From NCBI GenBank assembly GCA_009777475.1, contig WRLU01000008.1, positions 1 through 64,000 of the forward strand: a DNA stretch of 64,000 nucleotides. The letters run 5' to 3'. This DNA comes from Oscillospiraceae bacterium (lineage in GTDB: Bacteria; Bacillota; Clostridia; Oscillospirales; UBA929). Position numbers and translations under genes: made by a program. Below the pieces are notes generated by a model. It was not told the origin of the DNA. It did not search any database and was given only the letters and a program-made list of their open reading frames with translations. This document shows positions 3,492 through 64,000 of this stretch, in pieces (positions within the stretch are counted from its first letter, which is position 1; every line of letters begins with the position of its first letter).

Positions 3492-5627
3492 ATGGGCGCA
3501 ATACTTGATTTAATCATCGCGCAGCCGTTGGGGATTCTTATGAAGCTGTGTCTGGGGCTTTCGGCAAACTATGGACTTAGCATCATCTTGTTTACCTTTT
3601 TTGTCCGGTTAGTTTTTTTGCCGCTGGGTTTTTGGGTTCACAAAAACTCCATCAAGCAAATTCGCCTCAGGCCCATGCTGAACCGATTGGAAGCAGAGTA
3701 TATCTACGACAGAGACAAGTTTGCTGAAGAGCAAATGAAGCTGTATAAGCGCGAAAAATACAATCTTTTTGCAGGTTCGGTCCCCTTGCTGCTCCAGATT
3801 CCGCTGATTATCGGGTTAATTTCGGTCATATACAATCCGCTGACACATCTGCTGGGTATGGATAAGGGAATGGTTGAGGCCTTTGTGACTGTCACTGAAG
3901 AGATTGCCGGTGAAGACATTGGAATAGCACCTCAGCTAAAAACCGTAGAGCTTCTTAAAGACGATGCAAATATACCCCATTACATGACCATCATAGAGCA
4001 GCACCCCGAAGATGGTATTATGGGCGGTGCTGAACTAGTTCGCTCTAATATATACCAAATCAAAGCTCTTGATACTAATTTTTTTGGTCTGAACTTAGCA
4101 CAAACCGCTTCTGTTTTCACGTTTTCAGCATTGTGGCTAATACCGTTTTTTGCAGGTATTAGCGCGTTTATGCTATGTGTGTTGCAAAACAGAAACAACG
4201 TATTGCAAAAAGAACAGGGGTTTTGGGGCCTTTGGGGCATGACCGCTTTCCTGACTGCATTTTCTCTATATTTTGGCTTTGCCGTGCCGGCGGGTGTCGG
4301 ATTGTACTGGATCGTTGGAAATACGCTGAATATCGCTCAGATGTTTATGTTAAACGCTGTGTACAGCCCGGGAAGGTTTATTGATTATGATGACTTAGAG
4401 GAGAGCAAGGCTCTTCTGCAAAAGGCAAAAAAAGGGGTGCCAAAAAAACGCGCCGTCCTGTTTGACCAAAGCCCCCAAGGCAAACGCGAAAGGGCGGATT
4501 ACAAGAGGTTTTTCGCAACGCCTAGCGAGGATATGAAGTTAGTCTTTTATTCGGAAGGCGGCGGTTATTATAAATATTTCAAAAATATCATTGAGGTTAT
4601 CCTCAAAAATTCGGGCTTATCCGTGCATTACATTACAAGTGACCCGGAGGATCCTGTTTTTCAGATATGTGATCCACAATTCAAGCCGTATTACATAGGA
4701 GAGGCACGTCTTATTTCCTTGATGATGAAGATTACAGCCGACATGGTTGTGATGACCATGCCTGATTTACAGACATTCCATATCAAGCGGTCTTTGGTAC
4801 GAAAGGATGTTGAGTACGTATATGTTGACCATGGAGGGTTGAGCCTAAATATTGTTTTCAGACCTGGAGCGTTTGATTATTTTGACACGATTTTTGCCGT
4901 CAGTGAGCTGCAGGGGCGTGAAATCCGTGCCATGGAAAAATTGCGCGGCACAAAAAAGAAGGGCATTTTGAAATGCGGGTATGCTCAAATTGACAGCATG
5001 ATTGCTGCTTATGAATCAAAAGCGAAAAAAAATGAAAACCCAATCCCAGTTCTTTTGATTGCGCCAAGCTGGTCGGAGGACAATATTTTAGACAGCTGCT
5101 TAGATCCAATGCTAAACAAAATCCTTGATAAAGGCTGGAGGATTATCATCCGTCCCCATCCCATGTATATCAAACGCTTTCCCGACAAAATGAACCGGAT
5201 TATCTCCAAATATCAAGATAGGACAAATGAAGTATTCACTATCGAAACCGATTTTTCTTCTAACGCAACAGTATATTCAGCTGATTTGATGATTACTGAC
5301 TGGTCAGCAATTGCGGCGGAATTCAGCTTCACCACCCTGAAGCCCACACTGTTTGTTAACACTAAAATGAAAGTGCTCAACCCCGATTATGACAAAATTG
5401 AAATTGAGCCGTATATTATTACCGTCAGAGATATTGTCGGCATCTCAATTGAAAAAGAAGCCGTATCCCAAATTGATGGGGTTGTTGAGGATTTGTTGCG
5501 GCGGAAGGATGAATTTGCACAAGCTATCAAAGCCGAGCGCGAGAGCTATTACTATAATCTGGGCTGTAGCGGGAAGGTCGGTGCAAGGTATATTATTGAA
5601 AAGCTGGGCGGGGGAAATCTCAATTGA
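3492..5627 (+). CDS. YidC/Oxa1 insertase domain fused to CDP-glycerol glycerophosphotransferase
   Basis: A 711-residue two-domain protein. Residues 1 to about 292 are a YidC/Oxa1 membrane insertase: first membrane helix with the groove arginine (R39 in FFVRLVFLPL), the charged cytoplasmic hairpin at 50-90, the LLLQIPLIIGL segment near 99, and the last helices near 205-290 ending in VGLYWIVGNTLNIAQ. After a basic linker, residues 348-705 form a TagB/TagF-type glycerophosphotransferase with DHGG (447), IAPSWSED (523), IIRPHP (552) and ITDWSA (601), the motifs that bind CDP-glycerol and carry the catalytic His residues. Known TagF-type enzymes add glycerol-phosphate units at the inner membrane face. 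Joining one to an insertase is unusual. The start has a GGAGGT site. The frame continues smoothly through the junction, so this is not a sequencing join of two stop-separated genes. Confidence 0.85.
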   Translation: MGAILDLIIAQPLGILMKLCLGLSANYGLSIILFTFFVRLVFLPLGFWVHKNSIKQIRLRPMLNRLEAEYIYDRDKFAEEQMKLYKREKYNLFAGSVPLLLQIPLIIGLISVIYNPLTHLLGMDKGMVEAFVTVTEEIAGEDIGIAPQLKTVELLKDDANIPHYMTIIEQHPEDGIMGGAELVRSNIYQIKALDTNFFGLNLAQTASVFTFSALWLIPFFAGISAFMLCVLQNRNNVLQKEQGFWGLWGMTAFLTAFSLYFGFAVPAGVGLYWIVGNTLNIAQMFMLNAVYSPGRFIDYDDLEESKALLQKAKKGVPKKRAVLFDQSPQGKRERADYKRFFATPSEDMKLVFYSEGGGYYKYFKNIIEVILKNSGLSVHYITSDPEDPVFQICDPQFKPYYIGEARLISLMMKITADMVVMTMPDLQTFHIKRSLVRKDVEYVYVDHGGLSLNIVFRPGAFDYFDTIFAVSELQGREIRAMEKLRGTKKKGILKCGYAQIDSMIAAYESKAKKNENPIPVLLIAPSWSEDNILDSCLDPMLNKILDKGWRIIIRPHPMYIKRFPDKMNRIISKYQDRTNEVFTIETDFSSNATVYSADLMITDWSAIAAEFSFTTLKPTLFVNTKMKVLNPDYDKIEIEPYIITVRDIVGISIEKEAVSQIDGVVEDLLRRKDEFAQAIKAERESYYYNLGCSGKVGARYIIEKLGGGNLN

Positions 5628-9400: not shown

Positions 9401-12322
9401 TTATGATGGAAGACCATTCGTGGTCAGAACCGGCTGTGTGGGGGCTTTATTGCCCTTTGCTATGTCACAAAGGAACAAGTACTTGCCGCTTGCTACATTT
9501 TGCTTACCGGCAGTTTGCTGTACGCCATCAAGCCAGTGAGTAGCCTTGAGACCGAACTGTTTGCCTTTGAGGTCTCCGGTTCCCTTGAGAAGGCTCTTTA
9601 AGAAGGTTGTTGCATTAACCTTTTTAGGCGCACTGCCCGGTTGCCATGTGGTGCCGTTAGGATTGCTGGCAGCGGTTTTCCACCAATACTCGGTCTTAGC
9701 CACAACTTCTTTTCCGCCAACAACCTGAACAGGAGCTACGCAAACACCTTCTAACTGTCCCCATCCTGTGATTTCAGAGGTTTTGTCAGCCTTACCCTTG
9801 ACATCAGCTCTAGCGGCTACGGGATACGGTGCAACCGCAATGTCAATATCAGCAGAGGGGTAAGGTGTGGTCACGTTTTTCTTCTCTGCCAAAATCCACT
9901 TGCTACCTGAAGCCTGAGGATTCTTGCCTAAAAGAATGCTGTAGTTGATATAGGGCTTTTGGGTAGCCTTTTTGCGATCCTCGGTTTTGGGGAAGTCATA
10001 CTCAGCGGTGCCTACTTTGATCTTCAGCGTTGCCGACTTGTTGAGAACCTTGGAGAGCCAGCGGGCTTTGTCGGTTTTAACAGCCTTAAAGCCTTTGCCC
10101 TTAGGATTATTCTCAACCGAGGTGGGGGTTATCGGATTGCCGCTTGCATCTTCAAAACGTTCCTGGGTGAGGTTGAGGAAATAGCCTGCCGGGTTACTGG
10201 GAACTTTAATCTCCGTTGCTCTGCTAGTTATGCAATTTCCAGCACGAACCTGTACTAAGGTGCAGTTGTTGCATCCGGCACTCCTCGGGGCTGTCCAGGT
10301 GGGGGGATCATTAGTGAACCAGATGGACTCGATTTCAAGGGTTCCGAGACCGAAGGTATAGAAGCCTAAAACCCCGATATCCCTCTGTGCGACTGTTACT
10401 CTGTCTTCAGAGTCCACAACTGGGGTTTTAATAGCAGTCAGAGCGACAGGGATGTCCTGCCATTCATCGGTCAGGGTGTAATCGCTTTGCAGAATGTCTA
10501 TCCATCCCAGGTATGTCTCGTTTTCACGTTGAACAGAGATAGCGGTGTTGTTGGAGAAGGTGGGACCTGCGTTGCTGTTGCCCCTGGCGCGGATAACAAT
10601 GTGCGTGTAGTTCTCACCGATGCCGATCGCACGGTATACACCAGCGACCTGCCCGGCATATGCATCGCCGGTGGCAGAGGTGCGGTTGAGTGTCAGCTTG
10701 CCGTCAACGCCTAATGCAACACTGTCCCATGTATTAGGGGCTGAGGGATGGAAATAACGTGGCCTCCAGCCATCATCGGAGTCATAGTCATCTCTTTCAT
10801 CAGAGTGAGTGTACGGCAACCCATCAACATCAGCAATCTTATGCAGGCTGGGCCAGATGGGATCTGGAGCTGCAGGAGTGATCGGAGGGGGACCGGGGTC
10901 GCCGGGGTCTATTGCCGAGCCAACGAAGTCGAAGATATACGCTCCGTCAGAGGGGCCACCTGGGGTTCCGTCGCCCTTGGGCGGGAAGATGTTGGGGAAA
11001 TGCCAGTCGCCATAATTGGGAGTCGGCCCCGGCTCATCGCCACGCGGGTCAAAGTCTGGGTCGTTGGTAAACCAAAGACCAGAGACGGTCATCTTGCCTG
11101 GTTCAGGTGCTGTGTCTCCATCTCCGTAGGTAATAAATCCAACAGCAGCAACGTCAGACGTGTTAAGTGTGTTGGGACCATCAACGAGACCAGTACCCAG
11201 AGATATAGTAACATTAACAAAGTCGGTGTAACTCGGTGTATAATTACCCGTAAGATGAGCACCAGTTGAGTTTATCCACTCAAGATCGTCGTCATCTCCC
11301 TCAGAAAAGAATGCCAAGTTTAAGATGCCATCGCCCTTAACTCTGGCGATTAGGAAGCTGTAGTCCTCTTCAGCATTGACTGCACCTATGCTGCCTTTGT
11401 CATTCTCTGTTGATTCAACAATTTCAACAGGAGTTCCGGCAGTTGCTACGGTACCATTAGCGGGATGGAAGTAGCGTGCATCAACGCCAACTGTGCCGTA
11501 GGTTAAAGATGTACCCGCCTGCTCTGACTCTTTGAAGTCGAAGACGGTGTAGGCATCTACGGTGGGGGTGGTACCGCCTGTTAAGGTAGAGGTACCGACT
11601 ACGCCCAAAAAGCTACCCCAGCCTACTCCGTATTCCCAGGGAATGCCACCGCTGTTCCAGTTGGGGGTGCCAACTGTGTTGTCATGCGGGATTACGACTG
11701 AGCCAGCTTGGTACACCAGATTGTCTGTGGTTGCGTTATCCGTGAAGTACACATTGTCAATTGTCACATCGGTCGCGGCGTGACTGTGGAAAGTGACAGA
11801 AGCTATTTCACGAGCATCGAACGGAAGCATAATGGCGATTTTGCCGGTCGTGTTGCTGGTTGTGTACGCCGGGCTAACATCCTGTAGAATGTTGTTGAAG
11901 ACACCATCGTCCGGCTCGCCGGATGCTTTGTCTTCGTTGGCTTCGTCATCCTCCGCAGAGGTCAGGTGAACTTGTATGTTGCGCGTGTTCCCTGTGATGC
12001 CGATGACCATGTAGCCCCAGTCCTTGGTGACTTCATCAACGAGGCTAATGGTACCCAAGCTGTTGTAGCCTGTGCCAGAATCGACTACCAGCCCTGTGGC
12101 ATCAATGTCACCTATTGTCCCGATGGAATAGATGTTGTCTCCGCTGGTGGCATTGGTGTAAGTACCCGGATCACCGCTGTCTTCTGTTGCGTTGGCGAAG
12201 TCGAATACCGGGTAAAGGTCCCCCGCGGGAAGTGCCGCCAGCATAGTCAGCGGAACCAGGGACATGAGCATTGCAACGGCCACCGCCAATGCCCAAATTT
12301 TTCTTGTACGTTTCTGTCTCAT
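9401..12322 (-). CDS. large secreted protein, three FDF-WFTNDP domains plus shared C-terminal module
   Basis: A 973-residue secreted protein of unknown function. A basic signal peptide with a long hydrophobic core covers residues 1-33. Three related domains follow at about 38-194, 258-422 and 461-672; each opens with an FDF motif and closes with WFTNDP or the variant YFTDNA, and the second and third also share a RYFHP motif. Their beta-rich look suggests carbohydrate-binding jelly rolls, but that is inference. Pro/Gly-rich linkers separate them. Residues 708-973 form a basic module (GYFLNLTQER, INYSILL, SGSKWILAEKK, NATTFLKSLL, NKAPTQPV) shared with the proteins at 42906-46919 and 62768-64000. 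No LPxTG or S-layer repeat is seen. The start has a perfect AAGGAGG site. It is a single-gene unit with its own promoter and long leader. Confidence 0.8.
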   Translation of the reverse strand: MRQKRTRKIWALAVAVAMLMSLVPLTMLAALPAGDLYPVFDFANATEDSGDPGTYTNATSGDNIYSIGTIGDIDATGLVVDSGTGYNSLGTISLVDEVTKDWGYMVIGITGNTRNIQVHLTSAEDDEANEDKASGEPDDGVFNNILQDVSPAYTTSNTTGKIAIMLPFDAREIASVTFHSHAATDVTIDNVYFTDNATTDNLVYQAGSVVIPHDNTVGTPNWNSGGIPWEYGVGWGSFLGVVGTSTLTGGTTPTVDAYTVFDFKESEQAGTSLTYGTVGVDARYFHPANGTVATAGTPVEIVESTENDKGSIGAVNAEEDYSFLIARVKGDGILNLAFFSEGDDDDLEWINSTGAHLTGNYTPSYTDFVNVTISLGTGLVDGPNTLNTSDVAAVGFITYGDGDTAPEPGKMTVSGLWFTNDPDFDPRGDEPGPTPNYGDWHFPNIFPPKGDGTPGGPSDGAYIFDFVGSAIDPGDPGPPPITPAAPDPIWPSLHKIADVDGLPYTHSDERDDYDSDDGWRPRYFHPSAPNTWDSVALGVDGKLTLNRTSATGDAYAGQVAGVYRAIGIGENYTHIVIRARGNSNAGPTFSNNTAISVQRENETYLGWIDILQSDYTLTDEWQDIPVALTAIKTPVVDSEDRVTVAQRDIGVLGFYTFGLGTLEIESIWFTNDPPTWTAPRSAGCNNCTLVQVRAGNCITSRATEIKVPSNPAGYFLNLTQERFEDASGNPITPTSVENNPKGKGFKAVKTDKARWLSKVLNKSATLKIKVGTAEYDFPKTEDRKKATQKPYINYSILLGKNPQASGSKWILAEKKNVTTPYPSADIDIAVAPYPVAARADVKGKADKTSEITGWGQLEGVCVAPVQVVGGKEVVAKTEYWWKTAASNPNGTTWQPGSAPKKVNATTFLKSLLKGTGDLKGKQFGLKATHWLDGVQQTAGKQNVASGKYLFLCDIAKGNKAPTQPVLTTNGLPS

Positions 12323-13481: not shown

Positions 13482-13509
13482 ACACACGTTGAGAAAGTTG
13501 GTTTAGCAC

Positions 13510-14721
13510 TTGGAATTTTTGAGTAGACTTGTTGACCCCTTTGCCTGGCTTTTGCGCTCTCTTTACAGCATGACCGGTTCATACGGAGTGGCGATTATCC
13601 TGTTCGGAATTGTTGTCAAGATGGTTTTGTTTTTTTTCGCCTTCAAGGCGAAAAAGGGCATGCTGAAGCAGCAGCGCTTGATGCCCAAGGTAACCGAGCT
13701 TCAAAAAAAATATAAAAATGACAGGGTGAAGCTGGGTCAGGAGCAGCAAAAGCTGTATGAACAGGAGGGCGTTTCCCCGACAGGCGGCTGCTTGTGGAAT
13801 TTTATACCTATGCCCATCATCATCGCCCTGTTTGGAATCATACGCCAGCCATTGCGTTATCTTTTGGGCATGGAGAGCACTCTTGTGCTTATGCTTATCG
13901 CCGCAGGTGCCCCGGGGGCGGCTGTTGTCCCTGATATGCCTGATGCCGCCGGATCAGCCGGCTACCAAGAGCTAGAGGCCTCCCAGACATGGGTGAGCAA
14001 TCAGCAGGAGGTTCAGGACTGGCTTTACGATGCCGATGCCGTACAGTCATGGGTTGACGAGGATGCCAGGCTGTGGGAGAGTGAAGACAAGGAAGAGAAG
14101 AAAAAATCACACTTAAAGGCCAATTCGGTGATTTTGCGGGGAGCAATTAAAAACCCCGAGGATGTTCAAAAAATGGCTCGTGAGATTGACACCAGATATG
14201 AGCCTATCAACTTCACCTTTCTTGGCATCTTTCAGTTAGGAAGGGTTCCGCGGAAGCCCTGGGATGGTCTTGATCTTTTAGCAATTCTTCCGGTTTTGTC
14301 GGCACTTGTTTCCTTTGCGTCGGCCATTATAATCCAAAAATTCGCGGTCGTTCAGTCCGCTCAGCCCCGGAACACAAGGCTTATGATGCTGTTGCTTGGG
14401 CCTGGCTTTAGCTTGTGGTTTGGGTTTATGCTGCCTGCGGCTCTGAGCCTGTACTGGATGACCCAAAATCTAATCGGGATACCGCAGGAGTACTTTTTAA
14501 CCAGGCATTTCAATGGAGTGCTTGACAGGGAGGACGCGGAAAAGCTTGCCCTTGAAGAACGCAAGAGGGAAGCAGAACTCAGGCAGCGCGAGGAGGACCG
14601 TAAACGCCGGGCTGAGCGTATTGCCGAAAAAAGCAAAAAGAAAAAACCGAAAAGATATAAAATGCAAAATTCCTTAGACACAACAGGCGGAGATGAATCT
14701 AAATTTGAAGGAGACGATTGA
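13510..14721 (+). CDS. yidC: membrane protein insertase YidC (housekeeping copy)
   Basis: YidC/Oxa1-type insertase of the cytoplasmic membrane, 403 residues. The first core helix is YGVAIILFGIVVKMVLFFFA near residues 25-45, followed by a charged cytoplasmic hairpin and PTGGCLWNFIPMPIIIALF near 85-105. An unusually long hydrophilic loop of about 115 residues (about 130-245, acidic and Trp-rich) separates the second and third core helices. The last helices are near 253-330 and the tail is a highly charged coiled-coil-like stretch rich in Glu, Arg and Lys. Where Gram-positive YidC normally has the groove Arg, this copy has Lys (K38). It has no lipobox. The start is TTG. It lies in the usual operon, 3 bp before jag. 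Confidence 0.93.
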   Translation: MEFLSRLVDPFAWLLRSLYSMTGSYGVAIILFGIVVKMVLFFFAFKAKKGMLKQQRLMPKVTELQKKYKNDRVKLGQEQQKLYEQEGVSPTGGCLWNFIPMPIIIALFGIIRQPLRYLLGMESTLVLMLIAAGAPGAAVVPDMPDAAGSAGYQELEASQTWVSNQQEVQDWLYDADAVQSWVDEDARLWESEDKEEKKKSHLKANSVILRGAIKNPEDVQKMAREIDTRYEPINFTFLGIFQLGRVPRKPWDGLDLLAILPVLSALVSFASAIIIQKFAVVQSAQPRNTRLMMLLLGPGFSLWFGFMLPAALSLYWMTQNLIGIPQEYFLTRHFNGVLDREDAEKLALEERKREAELRQREEDRKRRAERIAEKSKKKKPKRYKMQNSLDTTGGDESKFEGDD

Positions 14722-17923: not shown

Positions 17924-18007
17924 TTAAGCGGGAAATTCCCGCTTAACATAACCCCTCGCATTTCGCGGGAGGCACCCTCCTTGTAAAGGAGGGTAAAATT
18001 AAGGAGG
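17924..18007 (+). promoter_or_regulatory. palindromes around the RCC1 ribosome binding site
   Basis: Two perfect inverted repeats follow the terminator: TTAAGCGGGAA/TTCCCGCTTAA at 17924-17946 and ACCCTCCTT/AAGGAGGGT at 17974-17994. The second contains CCTCCTT, which can pair either with its own arm or with the true Shine-Dalgarno AAGGAGG at 18001-18007. This could hide or free the start site. It may also be a dispersed palindromic intergenic repeat. Confidence 0.55.
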
Positions 18008-18015
18008 ATTTTACC

Positions 18016-20535
18016 ATGATAACCACTGAAAGCCCCAAAAAACTAACCGCGCTTATTGTTGCGGCAGCTATGCTGCTTGCGCTGCTGCCCGGCATTTCGG
18101 GTATGCCCCTGTACGCCGCCGGAAGTGACGCTAAGTGGGACGGCCAGTCGGGCATTGCCCAGATTGCGGTTAGCGACTACAACAGCTATGCGATCAAGGT
18201 TGACGGCACACTGTGGGCGTGGGGAAGTAGTGATTTAGGTCGGCTGGGCGATGGCACAACAGCGGACAAAGCCGCTCCGGTACAGCTTGACGGCACAGAC
18301 TGGGCGAGTGTTTCGACTGGCGTCAACCACACCCTGGCACTCAAAAAAGACGGCACGCTGTGGGGCTGGGGAGCGAATAATGACGGCGAGCTGGGCGATG
18401 GCACAACGGTCGTAAAAATGGCTCCGGCACAGGTGGGCGATGACACAGACTGGGCAAGCGTTTCTGCTGGCTACGCGTATAGCCTGGCACTCAAGGATGA
18501 CGGCACGCTGTGGGAGTGGGGTAAGAATAGTGGTGCATTAACCCCTGTGCAGGTAGGCGGGGATGAGGACTGGGCCAGCGTTACGGCTGGCTACGACCAC
18601 ACCCTTGCGCTCAAGGATGACGGCACGCTGTGGGCGTGGGGAGCGAATGAGTTCGGTCAGCTGGGCATCGGCTCAACGGAGGACAGAAACACCCCGGTAC
18701 AGGTTGGCAGTGACACAGACTGGGCAAGTGCTGCGGCTAACGCGGCGGACAGCCTTGCACTCAAGACTGACGGCACACTGTGGCACTGGGGTAAGAATAG
18801 TGGTGCATTAACCCCTGTGCAGGTAGGCGAGGACGAGGACTGGGCCAGTGCTGCGATTGGCGTCTATGAGGGTATCCTCAACTTCATGGCACTCAAGACT
18901 GACGGCACACTGTGGGGCTGGGGAACTAATGCCAGCGGCCAGCTTGGTGACGGCACAACAACCCCCAGAGAAACCCCTGTGAAGGTAGGCAATGGAGACA
19001 CAGACTGGGCAAGCGTTTATGCTTCCGCTCACCATACCGTGGCACTGAAGACTGACGGCACACTGTGGGCCTGGGGACGGAATGGCAGCGGTGAGCTGGG
19101 GCTAGGCTCAAGGGACAACCAAACCACCACCCCTGCACAGGTTGGTCAGCCTGAGGACTGGGCAAGCGTTGCAGCTGGTGGCGTACATACCGTGGCACTC
19201 AAGTCTGACGGCACACTGTGGGCGTGGGGAAGTAATGAATACGGTCAGCTGGGCGATGGAACAACGGACGACAAAATCACCCCGGTACAGGTAGGCGGGG
19301 ACGATGACTGGGAGAGTGTTTCAGCTGGCGCCTTCCATACCGTGGCACTGAAGTCTGACGGCACCCTGTGGGGCTGGGGAGGGTTTAATCTTAGCCAAAG
19401 CACCCCGCTTCAGGTTGGCAGTGACGCAGACTGGGCAAGCGTTTCAGCTGGTGGCATGCACACCATGGCACTCAAGTCTGACGGCACGCTGTGGGCATGG
19501 GGAAGTAATACCAGCGGCCAGCTGGGCGACGGCACAAAGGTCAATCAAGCCACCCCGGTACAGGTAGGAAAAGACACAGACTGGGCGAGCGTTTCAGCCG
19601 GCAACAGCCACACCCTGGCACTCAAGACTGACGGCACGCTGTGGGGCTGGGGAGCGAATGGTCAGGGCGAGCTGGGCGATGGCACAACGGACGGCAAAAC
19701 CACCCCGGTACAGGTAGGCGGGGCTCGTGACTGGGAAAGCGTTTTTGCCGGTACCAACCGTACCCTGGCACTCAAGGCTGACGGCACACTGTGGGCGTGG
19801 GGACTTGGAGACCCCCTCCCTGCACAGATAGGCAGTGACGATAACTGGGAGAGCGTTTCTGCTGGCACCTTCCATACCGTGGCACTCAAGGCTGACGGCA
19901 CACTGTGGCAGTGGGGACACAATGACTTCGCCCCTGCCAAGGTGGGAGAGGCTAATGACTGGGCGATCGTTACGGCTGGCGCCAACCACACTATGGCATT
20001 CAAGGCTGACGGTACCCTGTGGGCATGGGGAGATAATGGGTTCGGCCAGCTGGGCAACGGAATACTTGAGCTTCCTAGTAACGGCAAGGCCACCCCTGTG
20101 AAGATTTTTACCCCAGAGAAGAAGCTGAGTCCAACCAGTGCACCCGCACCCACCAGCGCGCCAACCTCCGCGCCAACGTCCGCACCAACCACCCCTGCGC
20201 CGACACAGAAGCCGGCCGCGGCGGCAAAGGCGGCAAAGCCAAAGGTCACCAGCCCTAAGAAAACCAAAATCAGCGTGAAGAGGAAAAAGAAGCTGACGCT
20301 GAAAATCAAGGCCAAAAACATGGGCAAGGGCGGCAAGCTTACGTATCAGTGGCAGGCAAGCAAAAAACAAAAAAGCGGCTTTAAAAATATCAAAGGCAAG
20401 GCTGCAAAAAAGAAAAGCTACAAGCCTTCCACAAAGAAAAAAGGCAGAAAATTTTACCGCTGCCGTGTCACCCACACTGTAGGGAAAACGAAGAAGAACA
20501 GGGCCTCTAAGGTGTTCAGGGTTACGGTGAAATAG
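18016..20535 (+). CDS. secreted RCC1-repeat protein (14 units) with lysine-rich tail
   Basis: An 839-residue secreted protein of unknown binding target. A signal peptide covers about residues 1-35 (ending LYAAG). Then come 14 RCC1 (alpha-tubulin suppressor type) units, each centred on DGTLWxWG and most with GQLGDGTT and TPVQVG. Units 3, 5, 9, 12 and 13 are short, lacking the GQLGDGTT loop. Fourteen units would build two seven-bladed propellers. A Pro/Thr/Ser/Ala linker (TSAPTSAPTSAPTT) leads to an Ig-like C-terminal domain of about 120 residues that is extremely Lys-rich (KISVKRKKKLTLKIKAK, TYQWQASKK). No LPxTG is seen. The start has AAGGAGG at the right distance. The repeats are similar at DNA level too, so recombination between units is possible. 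Confidence 0.88.
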   Translation: MITTESPKKLTALIVAAAMLLALLPGISGMPLYAAGSDAKWDGQSGIAQIAVSDYNSYAIKVDGTLWAWGSSDLGRLGDGTTADKAAPVQLDGTDWASVSTGVNHTLALKKDGTLWGWGANNDGELGDGTTVVKMAPAQVGDDTDWASVSAGYAYSLALKDDGTLWEWGKNSGALTPVQVGGDEDWASVTAGYDHTLALKDDGTLWAWGANEFGQLGIGSTEDRNTPVQVGSDTDWASAAANAADSLALKTDGTLWHWGKNSGALTPVQVGEDEDWASAAIGVYEGILNFMALKTDGTLWGWGTNASGQLGDGTTTPRETPVKVGNGDTDWASVYASAHHTVALKTDGTLWAWGRNGSGELGLGSRDNQTTTPAQVGQPEDWASVAAGGVHTVALKSDGTLWAWGSNEYGQLGDGTTDDKITPVQVGGDDDWESVSAGAFHTVALKSDGTLWGWGGFNLSQSTPLQVGSDADWASVSAGGMHTMALKSDGTLWAWGSNTSGQLGDGTKVNQATPVQVGKDTDWASVSAGNSHTLALKTDGTLWGWGANGQGELGDGTTDGKTTPVQVGGARDWESVFAGTNRTLALKADGTLWAWGLGDPLPAQIGSDDNWESVSAGTFHTVALKADGTLWQWGHNDFAPAKVGEANDWAIVTAGANHTMAFKADGTLWAWGDNGFGQLGNGILELPSNGKATPVKIFTPEKKLSPTSAPAPTSAPTSAPTSAPTTPAPTQKPAAAAKAAKPKVTSPKKTKISVKRKKKLTLKIKAKNMGKGGKLTYQWQASKKQKSGFKNIKGKAAKKKSYKPSTKKKGRKFYRCRVTHTVGKTKKNRASKVFRVTVK

Positions 20536-42871: not shown

Positions 42872-42905
42872 TTAAGAAGGAGTGAAAAAAACAGGAGGGA
42901 TTGAT

Positions 42906-45900
42906 ATGTTTAAAAAAGTTCTTGCCATTTTCGTTTTGACCGCATTGGTTTGCGGTCTATTTTCCTTGGCGGTTCCTTTGCCGCCTGTTGCCGGGGCGGC
43001 AACTCAGCCGCCATTACGTCTCAGGTATGATAGTCCTGCCGATTTGGAAAAATGGGAGCAGGAAGCCCTTCCCTTGGGTAATGGGCGCATGGGAGCCATG
43101 GTGTTCGGCGGGATAGCCGAGGATCGCATACAGATCAACGAGCATACTGTCTGGTCGGGTGGCCCGGGCGCTCTTGCTAATTACTCCCAGGCGAGACTTG
43201 GCAGCAGGGGCAGCTCAACGGTTAAGAATGCTTTAGAAGCCCTTCAGGATTCCATTCAGAGCAAGGTCAGCAATCTTTCCGGCGGGGATTACCCTGGTTA
43301 CTACCCAAATGAGGAGTATTTGGGGGACAGAGGCTTGGCATTGCAGGAACAAAGCCTTTTAGAGCAGCTCGAAGGCAATAGGGGAGGGAGCTTCGGATCA
43401 TATCAGACGCTAGGGGATATTTGGATAAATGACCCCGTTTACTCAAAGGCAAGGGTTAGCGGCTACTCGGCAAGCCATGAGCCGGGCAATGCGGGTGAAC
43501 GCTCGGGCAACTTGTTTGACGGCAACACCGCAACCAAATACTACGCGGGAGACAATCCTCCCATGCCCATAGTCTTTACCTGGAGTTACGACAAAGCAAT
43601 TACCGCCCAAGCTTACGCAATAGGCTCGGGTAACGATGTACCGGAACGCGATCCAATGGTTTGGGTGCTTGAAGGGGGCAACAGCGCGTCAGGCCCATGG
43701 AACACGCTCAATACGCAAGACAGGGCTGAGCACTTTGCCAATAGAGGCACGCTATATACCTTTGGCATTGCTTCCGGCAACCAAGGTAGCTATCGGTATT
43801 ACAGGCTAACGGTTACCGCCACAGGCGGGTCGCCGTTGCAGTTCTCTGAAATACAGCTAAACGAAACAGGGCAAGCAGTACCTCCCCAAGCTTCTTCTTA
43901 CGAACGCTGGCTAGATATAGACAGCGCCGTTGCGGGTGAACAGTTCACTGTTGGAGGCGTTACATATACCAAGGAATATTTTATCAGCAACCCGGGCAAT
44001 ATCATGGCTATCAGGATGGCGGCAAGTCAACAAGGTGCCCTTACTCGTGACATTGAGATCAGAACACCCCAGCCTGCCGTAACAATAACATCTTCCGGAA
44101 ATACAATTACCATGCAGGGTTGCCCCGGTGACCATAGCCAGCCAGACCGTCTGCTATTTGCTAAACAGGTCAGGGTCATAAATACCGGAGGAACTGTTGA
44201 GGCAAGCGGTAGCACAATTAAGGTTTCAGGTGCCGACTCGATGCTTATCTTAATGAGTGCAGGGAGCAACTATTTTCAGCAAACAGATGGCAGCGACAAT
44301 TACTTTTACACCCAGGATCCGGATGTTGTTTTGTCTGCCGTAAGTAGCCGTGTAAATACAGCATCCGCAAGCAACTATTGGCAGCTAAAGGATGCGCACA
44401 CATCTGATTATAAGGAATTGTTTGACCGTGTAAAGCTGAATCTTAACAATGCTGCTGAGGTAAATAGCATGACCACCGATGTTCTGCGGTCGAGATACCC
44501 CAGCGGCAACACTGCCGCTCAAAATAGCTACCTTGAAATTCTGTACTACCAATTTGGACGATATCTGCTAATTTCTTCATCAAGAGCCGGTCCCGGTTCG
44601 CTTCCTGCCAATTTGCAAGGAATTTGGGCGGATGGTCTGACCCCGCCGTGGGCATCTGATTACCACGCAAACATCAACGTACAGATGAACTACTGGCCGG
44701 CTCACCAGGCAAATCTTTCGGAGTGCGCAGAGCCTATGGTCGGGTTCATCAAAAGCCTTGTGAAGCGCGGCGAACAGACAGCACAGCATTTTCACCGCAA
44801 CCCAAACGGCGGAAATGTCAGGGGCTGGACTACTTACCATGAAAATAACATATGGGGGTTTGCCGCACCATCCTCCGGATGGCATCAGGGATTTTATTTT
44901 CCTGCGGCGGCGGCATGGCTGTGTCAGGATTTGTGGGAACAGTATCAATTTACCCAGAATATCAGTTTTTTGGAGGCCAATTATGACGCCATGCTACAGG
45001 CCGCACTATTTTGGGTTGACACTCTCTGGACAGACAGCCGTGACGGCAGTCTTGTTGCCAATCCGGGATTTTCTCCCGAGCATGGCGCATTTTCGCTAGG
45101 GGTTTCTTCTGATCAGGCAATCATCTGGGAGTTATTTGACATGGTGGAAAAGGCAAGCGGCGTTCTTGGATTGGCTTCTGCCGAGCTTAATCAGGTCAAG
45201 GAGGCCAAAGCCAGACTACATCTACCTCAAATAGGATCACAGGGCCACTATCTTGAATGGAAAGATGAACAAAGCATGGATATTACTGGCAACGACAATC
45301 CTGCCGGGCTTCGTAAAATTAACGGTGACGCGCAAGTTGGCCTGGGCGGCAAGCATCGGCACGTTAACCAGCTTCACGGACTGCACCCAGGCACATTAGC
45401 GATAGCTGGGCGTCCCGAAGACACAGAAAATCTTACCGCTATGCAAAAAACGCTTGAAACACGCGGTGATGGCGGTACCGGTTGGAGTATGGCTTGGAAA
45501 ATTAATTTCTGGGCACGCCTACGCAACGGCAACCGCGCCGGAGCTATGGTCAATCAGATTATTCAGAATTCAACCCTTCCCAACTTGTTTGACACTCATC
45601 CTCCTTTCCAGATTGACGGCAATTTTGGTGCCGCCGCCGGAATTAGCGAAATGATGCTTCAAAGCCAGGGCGGCTCAATTGACTTATTGCCATCTATTCC
45701 GAGTATGTGGGATAACGGTTCGGTTTCCGGATTGAAAGCCCGGGGCAATTTTGAGGTTGATATGGCCTGGGCTAACCAAAAACTACAAATAGCCGATATA
45801 AAAGCTATTTCTGGCGGAAGATGTGTTTTGAGTTATGAGGGTCTTGGCAATTTGCAATTTGTCAATTTTGCTATAGAGAAAATTGACAACGATACAATTT

Positions 45901-46919
45901 CGATTGCTGTTCAGCCGGGTGATACTGTGACCGTAGATATAAACGCAGGAACTGTTAATTCCACATCAGCAGTAGCTGTCAGTACGCCTCATCCCTCCTC
46001 ATCCCCCACGATTTCTCCCTCATCAACGCCTATTCCGTCCTTCCCGCCTCAGCCCGGGGATGCACTTACCCTTGAGCAGCTTCGCGCCGGTCATGGCTTA
46101 GACTACGGAATGCCGGACATTAAAGTTCCGGCGGAGGGGGATGTATCCGGTTACTTTATTAATTTAACACAGGAAAGGGTTGAAACACCAAACGGCACCT
46201 TTTCTGGGGCTGGCTACACCGCCAATGGCAAAGCAGGTAAAAAAGACATTTCCTCCGAGCTTGTCAAGCTGCTTAACAAAGAGTTAACCCTTGTCATAAC
46301 GGATGGAGGGGCAACGATTGCATTTCCCAAAATCAATGCCCGGCCCAAGCTTGATAAGTCAGACAAAATGGCTGTTAATTATAGCGTGCTGGCAGTCAAT
46401 AGCCCCACTGGCCCACAGGGTAGCAAATGGGCACTGGCTCCGAAAAACACGGATAATATTTCCGAAAAATACGATGTTGGTGTTGCCAATTATGGGGAAA
46501 ATGGGAGTGAACCCAAGCCTGTTAAAAATCCGGCAGTCACCCCGCTCAAATGGGGCAGGATTGATTCTGGCAAGGGGGTGCAGATTGCCGGTTTGCAGAT
46601 GGTGAATAGCAAGCCTAAGGTTTTGAAAACGGTGTACTACTACAGGAATCCCCCTTTGGATACAGATGGCTACACCCCTGCAAGCAAATCCGGGAGGGTT
46701 AGCGTTACCACCTTCAACAAAGCTCTGAAATCGGTTGCAAAGGCCCCGCCTAAAAACCAGCTAAGCTTCAAAATTGGGGCATTTATAAACGGCATAGAGC
46801 AGACAGATAAAGGTAAAAGGGATGTATACGATGGCGACCTTATATGGTTCGGCGGCGGCAAAAAAGCTCCTACTGCACCTGTTGCAGTTAGCGGCGTTGG
46901 CATGGTCAGACAGCCTTAA
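42906..46919 (+). CDS. secreted GH95 alpha-L-fucosidase-like enzyme with F5/8C insert and shared C-terminal module
   Basis: Glycoside hydrolase family 95 protein of 1337 residues; known members remove terminal fucose or galactose from glycans. A signal peptide covers residues 1-32. The GH95 N-terminal domain starts with PLGNGRMGAMVFGG near 57 and is interrupted at about 182-320 by a discoidin (F5/8 type C, CBM32-like) domain. In the catalytic barrel the Asn pair is in HANINVQMNYWP, the acid Glu in GFSPEHGAFS and the Asp in FQIDGNFGAAAG, so it should be active. A Pro/Ser/Thr linker precedes the last 256 residues, which match the C-termini of the proteins at 9401-12322 and 62768-64000 (GYFINLTQER, VNYSVLAV, GSKWALAPK, KKAPTAPV). 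The ATG at 42906 has AGGAGGG; an upstream GTG would add unlikely residues. Confidence 0.92.
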   Translation: MFKKVLAIFVLTALVCGLFSLAVPLPPVAGAATQPPLRLRYDSPADLEKWEQEALPLGNGRMGAMVFGGIAEDRIQINEHTVWSGGPGALANYSQARLGSRGSSTVKNALEALQDSIQSKVSNLSGGDYPGYYPNEEYLGDRGLALQEQSLLEQLEGNRGGSFGSYQTLGDIWINDPVYSKARVSGYSASHEPGNAGERSGNLFDGNTATKYYAGDNPPMPIVFTWSYDKAITAQAYAIGSGNDVPERDPMVWVLEGGNSASGPWNTLNTQDRAEHFANRGTLYTFGIASGNQGSYRYYRLTVTATGGSPLQFSEIQLNETGQAVPPQASSYERWLDIDSAVAGEQFTVGGVTYTKEYFISNPGNIMAIRMAASQQGALTRDIEIRTPQPAVTITSSGNTITMQGCPGDHSQPDRLLFAKQVRVINTGGTVEASGSTIKVSGADSMLILMSAGSNYFQQTDGSDNYFYTQDPDVVLSAVSSRVNTASASNYWQLKDAHTSDYKELFDRVKLNLNNAAEVNSMTTDVLRSRYPSGNTAAQNSYLEILYYQFGRYLLISSSRAGPGSLPANLQGIWADGLTPPWASDYHANINVQMNYWPAHQANLSECAEPMVGFIKSLVKRGEQTAQHFHRNPNGGNVRGWTTYHENNIWGFAAPSSGWHQGFYFPAAAAWLCQDLWEQYQFTQNISFLEANYDAMLQAALFWVDTLWTDSRDGSLVANPGFSPEHGAFSLGVSSDQAIIWELFDMVEKASGVLGLASAELNQVKEAKARLHLPQIGSQGHYLEWKDEQSMDITGNDNPAGLRKINGDAQVGLGGKHRHVNQLHGLHPGTLAIAGRPEDTENLTAMQKTLETRGDGGTGWSMAWKINFWARLRNGNRAGAMVNQIIQNSTLPNLFDTHPPFQIDGNFGAAAGISEMMLQSQGGSIDLLPSIPSMWDNGSVSGLKARGNFEVDMAWANQKLQIADIKAISGGRCVLSYEGLGNLQFVNFAIEKIDNDTISIAVQPGDTVTVDINAGTVNSTSAVAVSTPHPSSSPTISPSSTPIPSFPPQPGDALTLEQLRAGHGLDYGMPDIKVPAEGDVSGYFINLTQERVETPNGTFSGAGYTANGKAGKKDISSELVKLLNKELTLVITDGGATIAFPKINARPKLDKSDKMAVNYSVLAVNSPTGPQGSKWALAPKNTDNISEKYDVGVANYGENGSEPKPVKNPAVTPLKWGRIDSGKGVQIAGLQMVNSKPKVLKTVYYYRNPPLDTDGYTPASKSGRVSVTTFNKALKSVAKAPPKNQLSFKIGAFINGIEQTDKGKRDVYDGDLIWFGGGKKAPTAPVAVSGVGMVRQP

Positions 46920-62767: not shown

Positions 62768-64000
62768 TTACGACAGCGGGCCTATTTCGCTTTGAGGCTT
62801 TTTAAGCGTAGGGGCTTTCCAGACGGTAACATCCTTTATGCCCTCCGGCAGTGTAACAGTCACCTTGGCATCCCTGGCAAATAGAAGCTGACCCGGCTCT
62901 ATGGCAACGGCTGCGTTTTTGTCAGCCGGGGTCAGGGTGGGTGCGGCAATCCCGGAGGCCTCCAGCTCATTGAGAGACCCCGCGAAAATCATATCGCCTT
63001 TTTTAAGCTTGACAGCTCCCGCCTTTGACTTGTAGTTTGGTTTTTTTGGTATGCCCTTAACACTGCCTACATTGTTTGTATTAAGAATCCTTTTGATTTT
63101 GCTGGCAGCGGTATAGGTTTTACTGCCATCGGGGGCAATATGCTCCTGGGGTGCCTTTCTGATGAAATAGCTGATTTCGCGTGTTATATCTTTATTTTTA
63201 ACACTGTAGCCGTTGCACTGGGTGGCACTGAAGACATCATCTGAGCAATCGCCCTCGTGACCGCATTCCCAAAACTTTCCGAAGCCGTTTTCGTTAACAA
63301 CCTTTTTATTGTCGGCACCGGAAATTCCGACCTCAAGCTCTTTTTTGCTCTCTCTGGGTGGGATCAGCGCCTTGCCGTCTTTTTTCAAAACCAGCCATTT
63401 TCCCGATGTTTTGCCTGTCCAGTCAGCACCATATGTGTAGTTGATTTGTGTTTTTGGAAATTTGGCGCGCTTGCTGATATTGGGGAACGCCAAAATGCGG
63501 GCATTGGCAGGCGGCTTCTTGGTACCCTTTTCAATAGCCTCATCCGACAGTCTTAGGCTGAGGTCCTTGCCAAGAATCTTGGCGAAATTGTTCTTTTGCT
63601 TGTCGGAGGTCCTTGTGTTAAACGGATTTTTATTGTGACCCATATTTTGCTGGTCATTCTTGATGGTCTTCCATCTATTGCCTCCATCAACACTGTATGA
63701 CTTGATGGTATAGCCCTCGGGAAGCTGAATAGCTTCACTGCTTAGGTCTATGGCGAGCCCTTGGACAATTTCCCATGTGGTAACAATGCCCGTGTTCTCG
63801 TCCTCCCCGATGTCAGCACTGCTATTGATGGAAGTTGCTCCCTTCACTTGATAACCCTGAACTACAATAGGAGGCTGGGTATAGTCAATGTCAGCCCCGT
63901 CAGAGTCAACCAGCTTGGCGTAAAGGGTCATGTTTCCTTTAACTGTGTCTTTAGTAAAATCCCATTTTACAGTGCGGTGCCAGTCGCTGTACCAGCCAAG
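62768..64000 (-). CDS. secreted protein, C-terminal part, with Flg_new-type repeat and shared C-terminal module
   Basis: The frame is open to the window edge, so the N-terminus is missing; 410 residues are visible. The first, ending in GNMTLYAKLVDSDG, look like the end of a Listeria-Bacteroides (Flg_new, InlB B-type) repeat, in which GWYSD and TLYAK are typical. Further on, the pattern of the module shared with the proteins at 9401-12322 and 42906-46919 recurs in weaker form: ILGKDLSLRL, ILAFPNISKR, INYTYGADW, SGKWLVLKK, ITREISYFIRK and KKGDMIFAG. A Cys-rich insert (ECGHEGDCSDD, TQCNG) is unique to this copy. The C-terminus PQSEIGPLS has no sorting motif. It is probably a cell-surface protein; an ATG at 63931 exists but is internal. 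Confidence 0.78.
   Translation of the reverse strand, partial: LGWYSDWHRTVKWDFTKDTVKGNMTLYAKLVDSDGADIDYTQPPIVVQGYQVKGATSINSSADIGEDENTGIVTTWEIVQGLAIDLSSEAIQLPEGYTIKSYSVDGGNRWKTIKNDQQNMGHNKNPFNTRTSDKQKNNFAKILGKDLSLRLSDEAIEKGTKKPPANARILAFPNISKRAKFPKTQINYTYGADWTGKTSGKWLVLKKDGKALIPPRESKKELEVGISGADNKKVVNENGFGKFWECGHEGDCSDDVFSATQCNGYSVKNKDITREISYFIRKAPQEHIAPDGSKTYTAASKIKRILNTNNVGSVKGIPKKPNYKSKAGAVKLKKGDMIFAGSLNELEASGIAAPTLTPADKNAAVAIEPGQLLFARDAKVTVTLPEGIKDVTVWKAPTLKKPQSEIGPLS

Follow-up and report, generated by a model that had tools for sequence, protein, structure and literature searches.

Secreted proteins of an Oscillospiraceae bacterium without SLH domains end in a strongly basic module: a candidate surface anchor

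Non-covalent wall anchors are usually regarded as stable traits of a lineage. The T9SS C-terminal domain of Bacteroidota is a beta-rich domain that is found on many secreted proteins. Attachment through SLH domains (PF00395) is tied to pyruvylation by CsaB, which makes the ligand of these domains (PMC6030368), and families of wall proteins are held non-covalently by repeated modules such as CWB2 (PF04122) and GW/SH3-8 (PF13457) (PMC5817068). A tested precedent for attachment to teichoic acid is the surface protein SlpA of Lactobacillus, which is bound by a C-terminal, highly positive domain (PMC11181022).

The module described here is an undescribed family that is strongly basic and occupies the C-termini of secreted enzymes and adhesins; no description of it was found in the open-access literature searched. 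It was identified in a window, a stretch of 64,000 nucleotides of contig C8; the genome has a size of 2.2 Mb and is assembled into 78 contigs (99.25% complete, 0.04% contaminated). Judging from sequence, we give a probability of about 0.6 to the reading that the module is a non-covalent surface anchor, which replaces SLH domains and binds an anionic polymer of the cell wall.

The module in the window and in the genome

Three proteins encoded in the window carry the module:

9401–12322, (-) strand: FDF-type secreted protein of 973 aa, module carrier, passenger without a Pfam match
9413–10195, (-) strand: its C-terminal module (profile match 9419–10189)
42882–46919, (+) strand: GH95-type secreted glycosidase (PF22124, E 6e-137) with a Pro/Ser/Thr linker and the module at its end
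46140–46898, (+) strand: C-terminal module of the GH95-type glycosidase (profile match 46143–46889)
62768–64000, (-) strand: C-terminal part of a GLUG/Flg_new protein (L084), the reading frame of which runs past the window
62771–63769, (-) strand: module of the GLUG/Flg_new protein, divergent and rich in inserts (profile match 62783–63763; leave-one-out E 2e-47)

The third reading frame encodes 1045 aa in full on contig C8. The earlier note had placed the glycosidase gene at 42906–46919; the gene and its tail stand, but the first start codon is at 42882. The tails of the first two proteins align pairwise over their full length with 91 identities in 264 positions (34%, E 4e-28). Profiles built with one sequence left out recover all three tails of the window with E values of 2.8e-51, 5.2e-53, and 2.1e-47, the last being that of the GLUG/Flg_new protein; these values are scaled to 10,000 sequences, and the best shuffled-sequence controls reached about 1 to 20. 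Shuffled versions of the third tail gave E values above 10 in the same type of search. The common tail proposed for all three proteins is thus confirmed. The third tail had been called a weaker version of the other two; its membership is upheld by the profile but not by its pairwise comparison with the first tail, where the best E value, 0.29, is not significant.

A profile built from 39 copies of the module finds 83 matches in the genome, of which 46 are complete, 22 are broken at contig ends, and 15 are partial or divergent. The genome encodes about 50 or more module proteins, and the module is almost always their last part: 49 of approximately 53 copies that could be judged are terminal and end about a dozen residues or fewer before the stop codon. 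The module is internal in three to four proteins. Signal-peptide-like N-termini were recognized by a simple rule in 37 of the 40 genes with a complete start. The passengers include glycosidases of families GH95, GH43, and GH28, subtilase, papain-type protease, pectate-lyase-like, GLUG, LRR_5, RCC1, Flg_new, and Big_2 proteins; most passengers are not glycosidases but other types such as GLUG, LRR, and RCC1 proteins and proteases. Many copies follow a linker rich in proline and threonine and a CCIDYS..DIIV motif, and many are only 20–30% identical to one another.

The module has no relative in Pfam, NCBIfam, or the PDB. When 39 modules were compared with Pfam (E<=0.1), neither SlpA (PF03217) nor GW (PF13457) was matched, and no CWB2 (PF04122) repeats were detected. 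Weak matches to S-l_SbsC_C (E 0.013) and CcmL (E 0.007) were treated as chance.

The earlier note regarded the tail as a means of either surface retention or export. The role in export is not supported, because the module proteins already have Sec-type signal peptides, and the C-terminal sequences (KKAASAKQTVG, KAPTQPV, and similar) also led to its rejection. These termini contain neither a sorting motif nor a membrane span. The genome encodes two sortases; however, LPXTG-type attachment of the module proteins by sortase was likewise rejected on the C-terminal sequences. The C-terminus of one sortase (L256:1045-2256, (-) strand) resembles the last domain of the module, and the same protein has an EVYN..KWGG domain that is seen behind internal modules in relatives.

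Predicted fold, charge, and spread of the module

Modelling with AF2 gave a poor result for the window tail (pLDDT 53), and that model is not used here. The model of the relative L145, built from 11 sequences, has a pLDDT of 83 and apparently contains three tandem beta-sandwich domains. Profile–profile alignment of the thirds of the module matched only the overlap shared by them, without a threefold sequence repeat, and the three-domain organization is therefore read from the structure model. A Foldseek search with the L145 model returned generic FN3/Ig matches, the best with an E value of 4e-4 to the Ig-FN3 part of contactin, and VIA-align gave a Z of about 6 on its last domain, also to generic FN3/Ig folds. 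Thus, according to the model, the module looks like three tandem lysine-rich beta-sandwich domains.

The median pI of the module is 9.7 (8.95–10.2) and its median net charge is +17, whereas the median pI of the passengers is 4.6. All 43 proteins tested combine a module of pI above 8.5 with a passenger of pI below 7. Basic C-termini are not a general property of such proteins, because six SLH ends from congeners have pI values of 4.1–6.1.

FN3/Ig-like folds are frequent protein binders, and the module may accordingly dock on a dedicated protein receptor of the cell surface, in the manner of a dockerin or on an S-layer-like protein. The module-related end of sortase L256 would be in line with such docking; however, no repeated receptor domain was noticed in a non-systematic inspection, and the polarity of charge together with the 20–30% identity of many copies suggests a loose contact rather than a lock-and-key one. 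We consider docking on a receptor quite improbable.

The DNA of the linker and module is 80–92% identical within a gene subgroup despite the different passengers, which indicates recent movement between genes; for L052 and L064 the identity is 92.5% over 560 bp. Linker and module would thus form a DNA cassette that spreads to new passengers by duplication and recombination. Together with the terminal position, the signal peptides, and the varied upstream parts (for example GH95, subtilase, LRR, RCC1, and GLUG), this shared DNA bears out, for this genome, the claims of the earlier note that the module is a mobile C-terminal part of secreted proteins and that the sequences upstream of it are unrelated. 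Several contigs end inside the module in exact common tracts of 127 bp, a length that would correspond to the k-mer used in assembly; the module is therefore among the repeats that broke the assembly, and its true copy number is uncertain. The 22 matches at contig ends are on contigs C2, C6, C7, C10, C11, C25, C29, C30, C34, C40, C41, C46, C48, C53, C54, C58, C66, C67, and C70. The regions upstream of L045 and L056, otherwise unrelated module genes, have an identical stretch of about 100 bp in common, perhaps a joint promoter or leader.

Of the 295 genomes from the order, 12 contain the module, and all but one of these belong to the same family. No other genome with the module was found among 391 sampled from the class, nor were distant homologues. 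A scan of named genomes gave matches in Oscillospiraceae MAGs with the sample names Th196, Nt197, and Cx337, which we take to be termite-gut samples. In relatives, too, terminal modules are basic, with a median pI of 9.6. The module had been expected always to stand last, and internal copies were to count against it as a terminal module; the expectation agrees with 49 of approximately 53 copies in this genome, but internal copies do occur, in three to four of its proteins and, among relatives, in 21 of 44. The internal copies in relatives suggest that anchoring may be a derived use: the module may first have served as a general domain outside the cell, and its recruitment as an anchor would have come later.

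Absence of SLH domains and CsaB

No SLH domain (PF00395) was found in a search of the whole genome, whereas its five congeners have 43, 12, 39, 92, and 28, and the other family members tested have 3–120 each. CsaB (TIGR03609) has no match in this 99.25% complete genome and is present in five of five congeners. The absence of csaB alone could be a gap in the MAG, but that of SLH domains could not easily be, since the former rests on one gene and the latter on dozens. The loss of SLH domains, the loss of CsaB, and the expansion of the module are a single evolutionary event, as the full switch is seen in one genome.

Relatives with the module also own SLH proteins, so that both systems are present together. 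The two appear to be mutually exclusive within a protein: SLH is not among the 25 commonest of 30 families in 43 full-length module proteins of SLH-owning relatives, which leaves room for one weak single match, nor is it listed among 50 module proteins of this genome. It could be argued that the module is a mere stalk built of Ig-like domains, the copies of which arose by selfish duplication and by gene conversion, as its three modelled beta-sandwich domains, the near-identical DNA tracts between genes, and the internal positions in relatives would allow. Nevertheless, a stalk should precede something, whereas the module ends the protein after a flexible linker, has not been found joined to SLH, and expanded together with the loss of a known anchor; a stalk function is therefore very improbable.

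Passengers of the same kinds have exchanged their ends. Among secreted RCC1-type proteins of relatives, SLH is present in eight of eight checked, and an RCC1 passenger is joined to the module in L063 of this genome and in copies from genomes G001 and G003. An SLH-GLUG protein of G001 matches seven GLUG-module proteins here, including that at 62768–64000. An orthologue swap was also sought for the papain-like passenger, which had no match in relatives. Surface retention, as put forward in the earlier note, is in line with the loss of SLH and CsaB and with the exchange of passengers, and is itself a prediction.

An unlikely alternative is a ligand outside the cell: the basic module would attach to a polyanion such as a plant, humic, or mucus polymer and, in the manner of a carbohydrate-binding module (CBM), would keep enzymes on food particles instead of on the cell. 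The strong positive charge and the presence of GH95, GH43, GH28, and pectate-lyase-like enzymes among the passengers are compatible with it. However, the majority of passengers are not glycosidases (GLUG, LRR, RCC1, proteases), the same passenger types in relatives carry SLH, which is a wall anchor, and the disappearance of SLH and CsaB would be left unexplained.

Binding to the wall itself would involve an anionic polymer, and two genes bear on its nature. Contig C9 encodes a TarF-like glycerophosphotransferase (L274:7776-9317, (+) strand) that matches PF04464 with an E value of 1e-102 and the TarF model with an E value of 7e-86, which is below the curated cut-off; it is the one convincing teichoic-acid gene found. 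A short stretch at the C-terminus of this protein is TagD-like (glycerol-3-phosphate cytidylyltransferase, E 5e-4). PF04464 is absent from all five congeners, and is also found in two other genomes, weakly in G007 and clearly in G025. The second gene is in the window, which also encodes a second type of basic tail:

3492–5627, (+) strand: fusion of a YidC-type insertase (PF02096, E 2e-33) with a glycerophosphotransferase-like C-terminal domain (PF04464, E 3e-8, weak)
20221–20532, (+) strand: second basic tail, lysine-rich, pI 11.6, unrelated to the module, on the RCC1 secreted protein at 17947–20532

The fusion protein is possibly part of phosphopolymer synthesis, and together with the TarF-like gene it suggests a glycerol-phosphate wall polymer. 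A second YidC-like reading frame is located at 13507–14718. The second basic tail is Ig-like and lysine-rich (pI about 11–12), with 16 matches in this genome and none in 21 relatives; it is borne by RCC1 and other secreted proteins (17947–20532; L240, L241, L275-L281).

Anchoring by the module would proceed as follows. The protein would be secreted by the Sec pathway, and the basic module would bind electrostatically to an anionic wall polymer, so that the acidic passenger would face outward. A polymer of the glycerol-phosphate teichoic-acid type would be the most likely ligand, because the pyruvylated polymer bound by SLH would no longer be made. In this species the module would thus take over the task that SLH domains have in its closest relatives.

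Comparison with described anchors

It is possible, with slightly less than even odds, that the whole surface display was replaced in one species of the genus: SLH domains and the pathway to their pyruvylated ligand were lost, and their place on passengers of like types was taken by the basic three-domain anchor and the second basic tail, together with teichoic-acid-type polymer synthesis. The genus allows a direct comparison of six species, five with SLH and CsaB and one that is without both but has the expansion of the module. This opens the questions of how dozens of surface proteins change their anchor, whether the ligand or the module came first, and whether charge alone is enough. Anchoring by the module would also indicate where dozens of secreted gut-bacterial enzymes and adhesins that lack annotation are likely to be located.

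The T9SS C-terminal domain is, like the module, C-terminal, beta-rich, and present on many secreted proteins; however, the host of the module belongs to the Bacillota (Oscillospirales), and neither cleavage nor an export machine of its own is in evidence. Closer in use are the SLH domains that depend on the CsaB-pyruvylated polymer. Both are recurrent terminal modules on many unrelated secreted passengers, of the same types in relatives, and both attach non-covalently, which in the case of the module is predicted. By contrast, the sequences of the two do not match, the SLH ends examined are acidic whereas the module is basic and a predicted beta-sandwich, and CsaB is absent here. The teichoic-acid-binding (TAB) domain of SlpA shares with the module both the C-terminal position and the highly positive charge; it is, however, carried by S-layer proteins, whereas the module is carried by dozens of different proteins.
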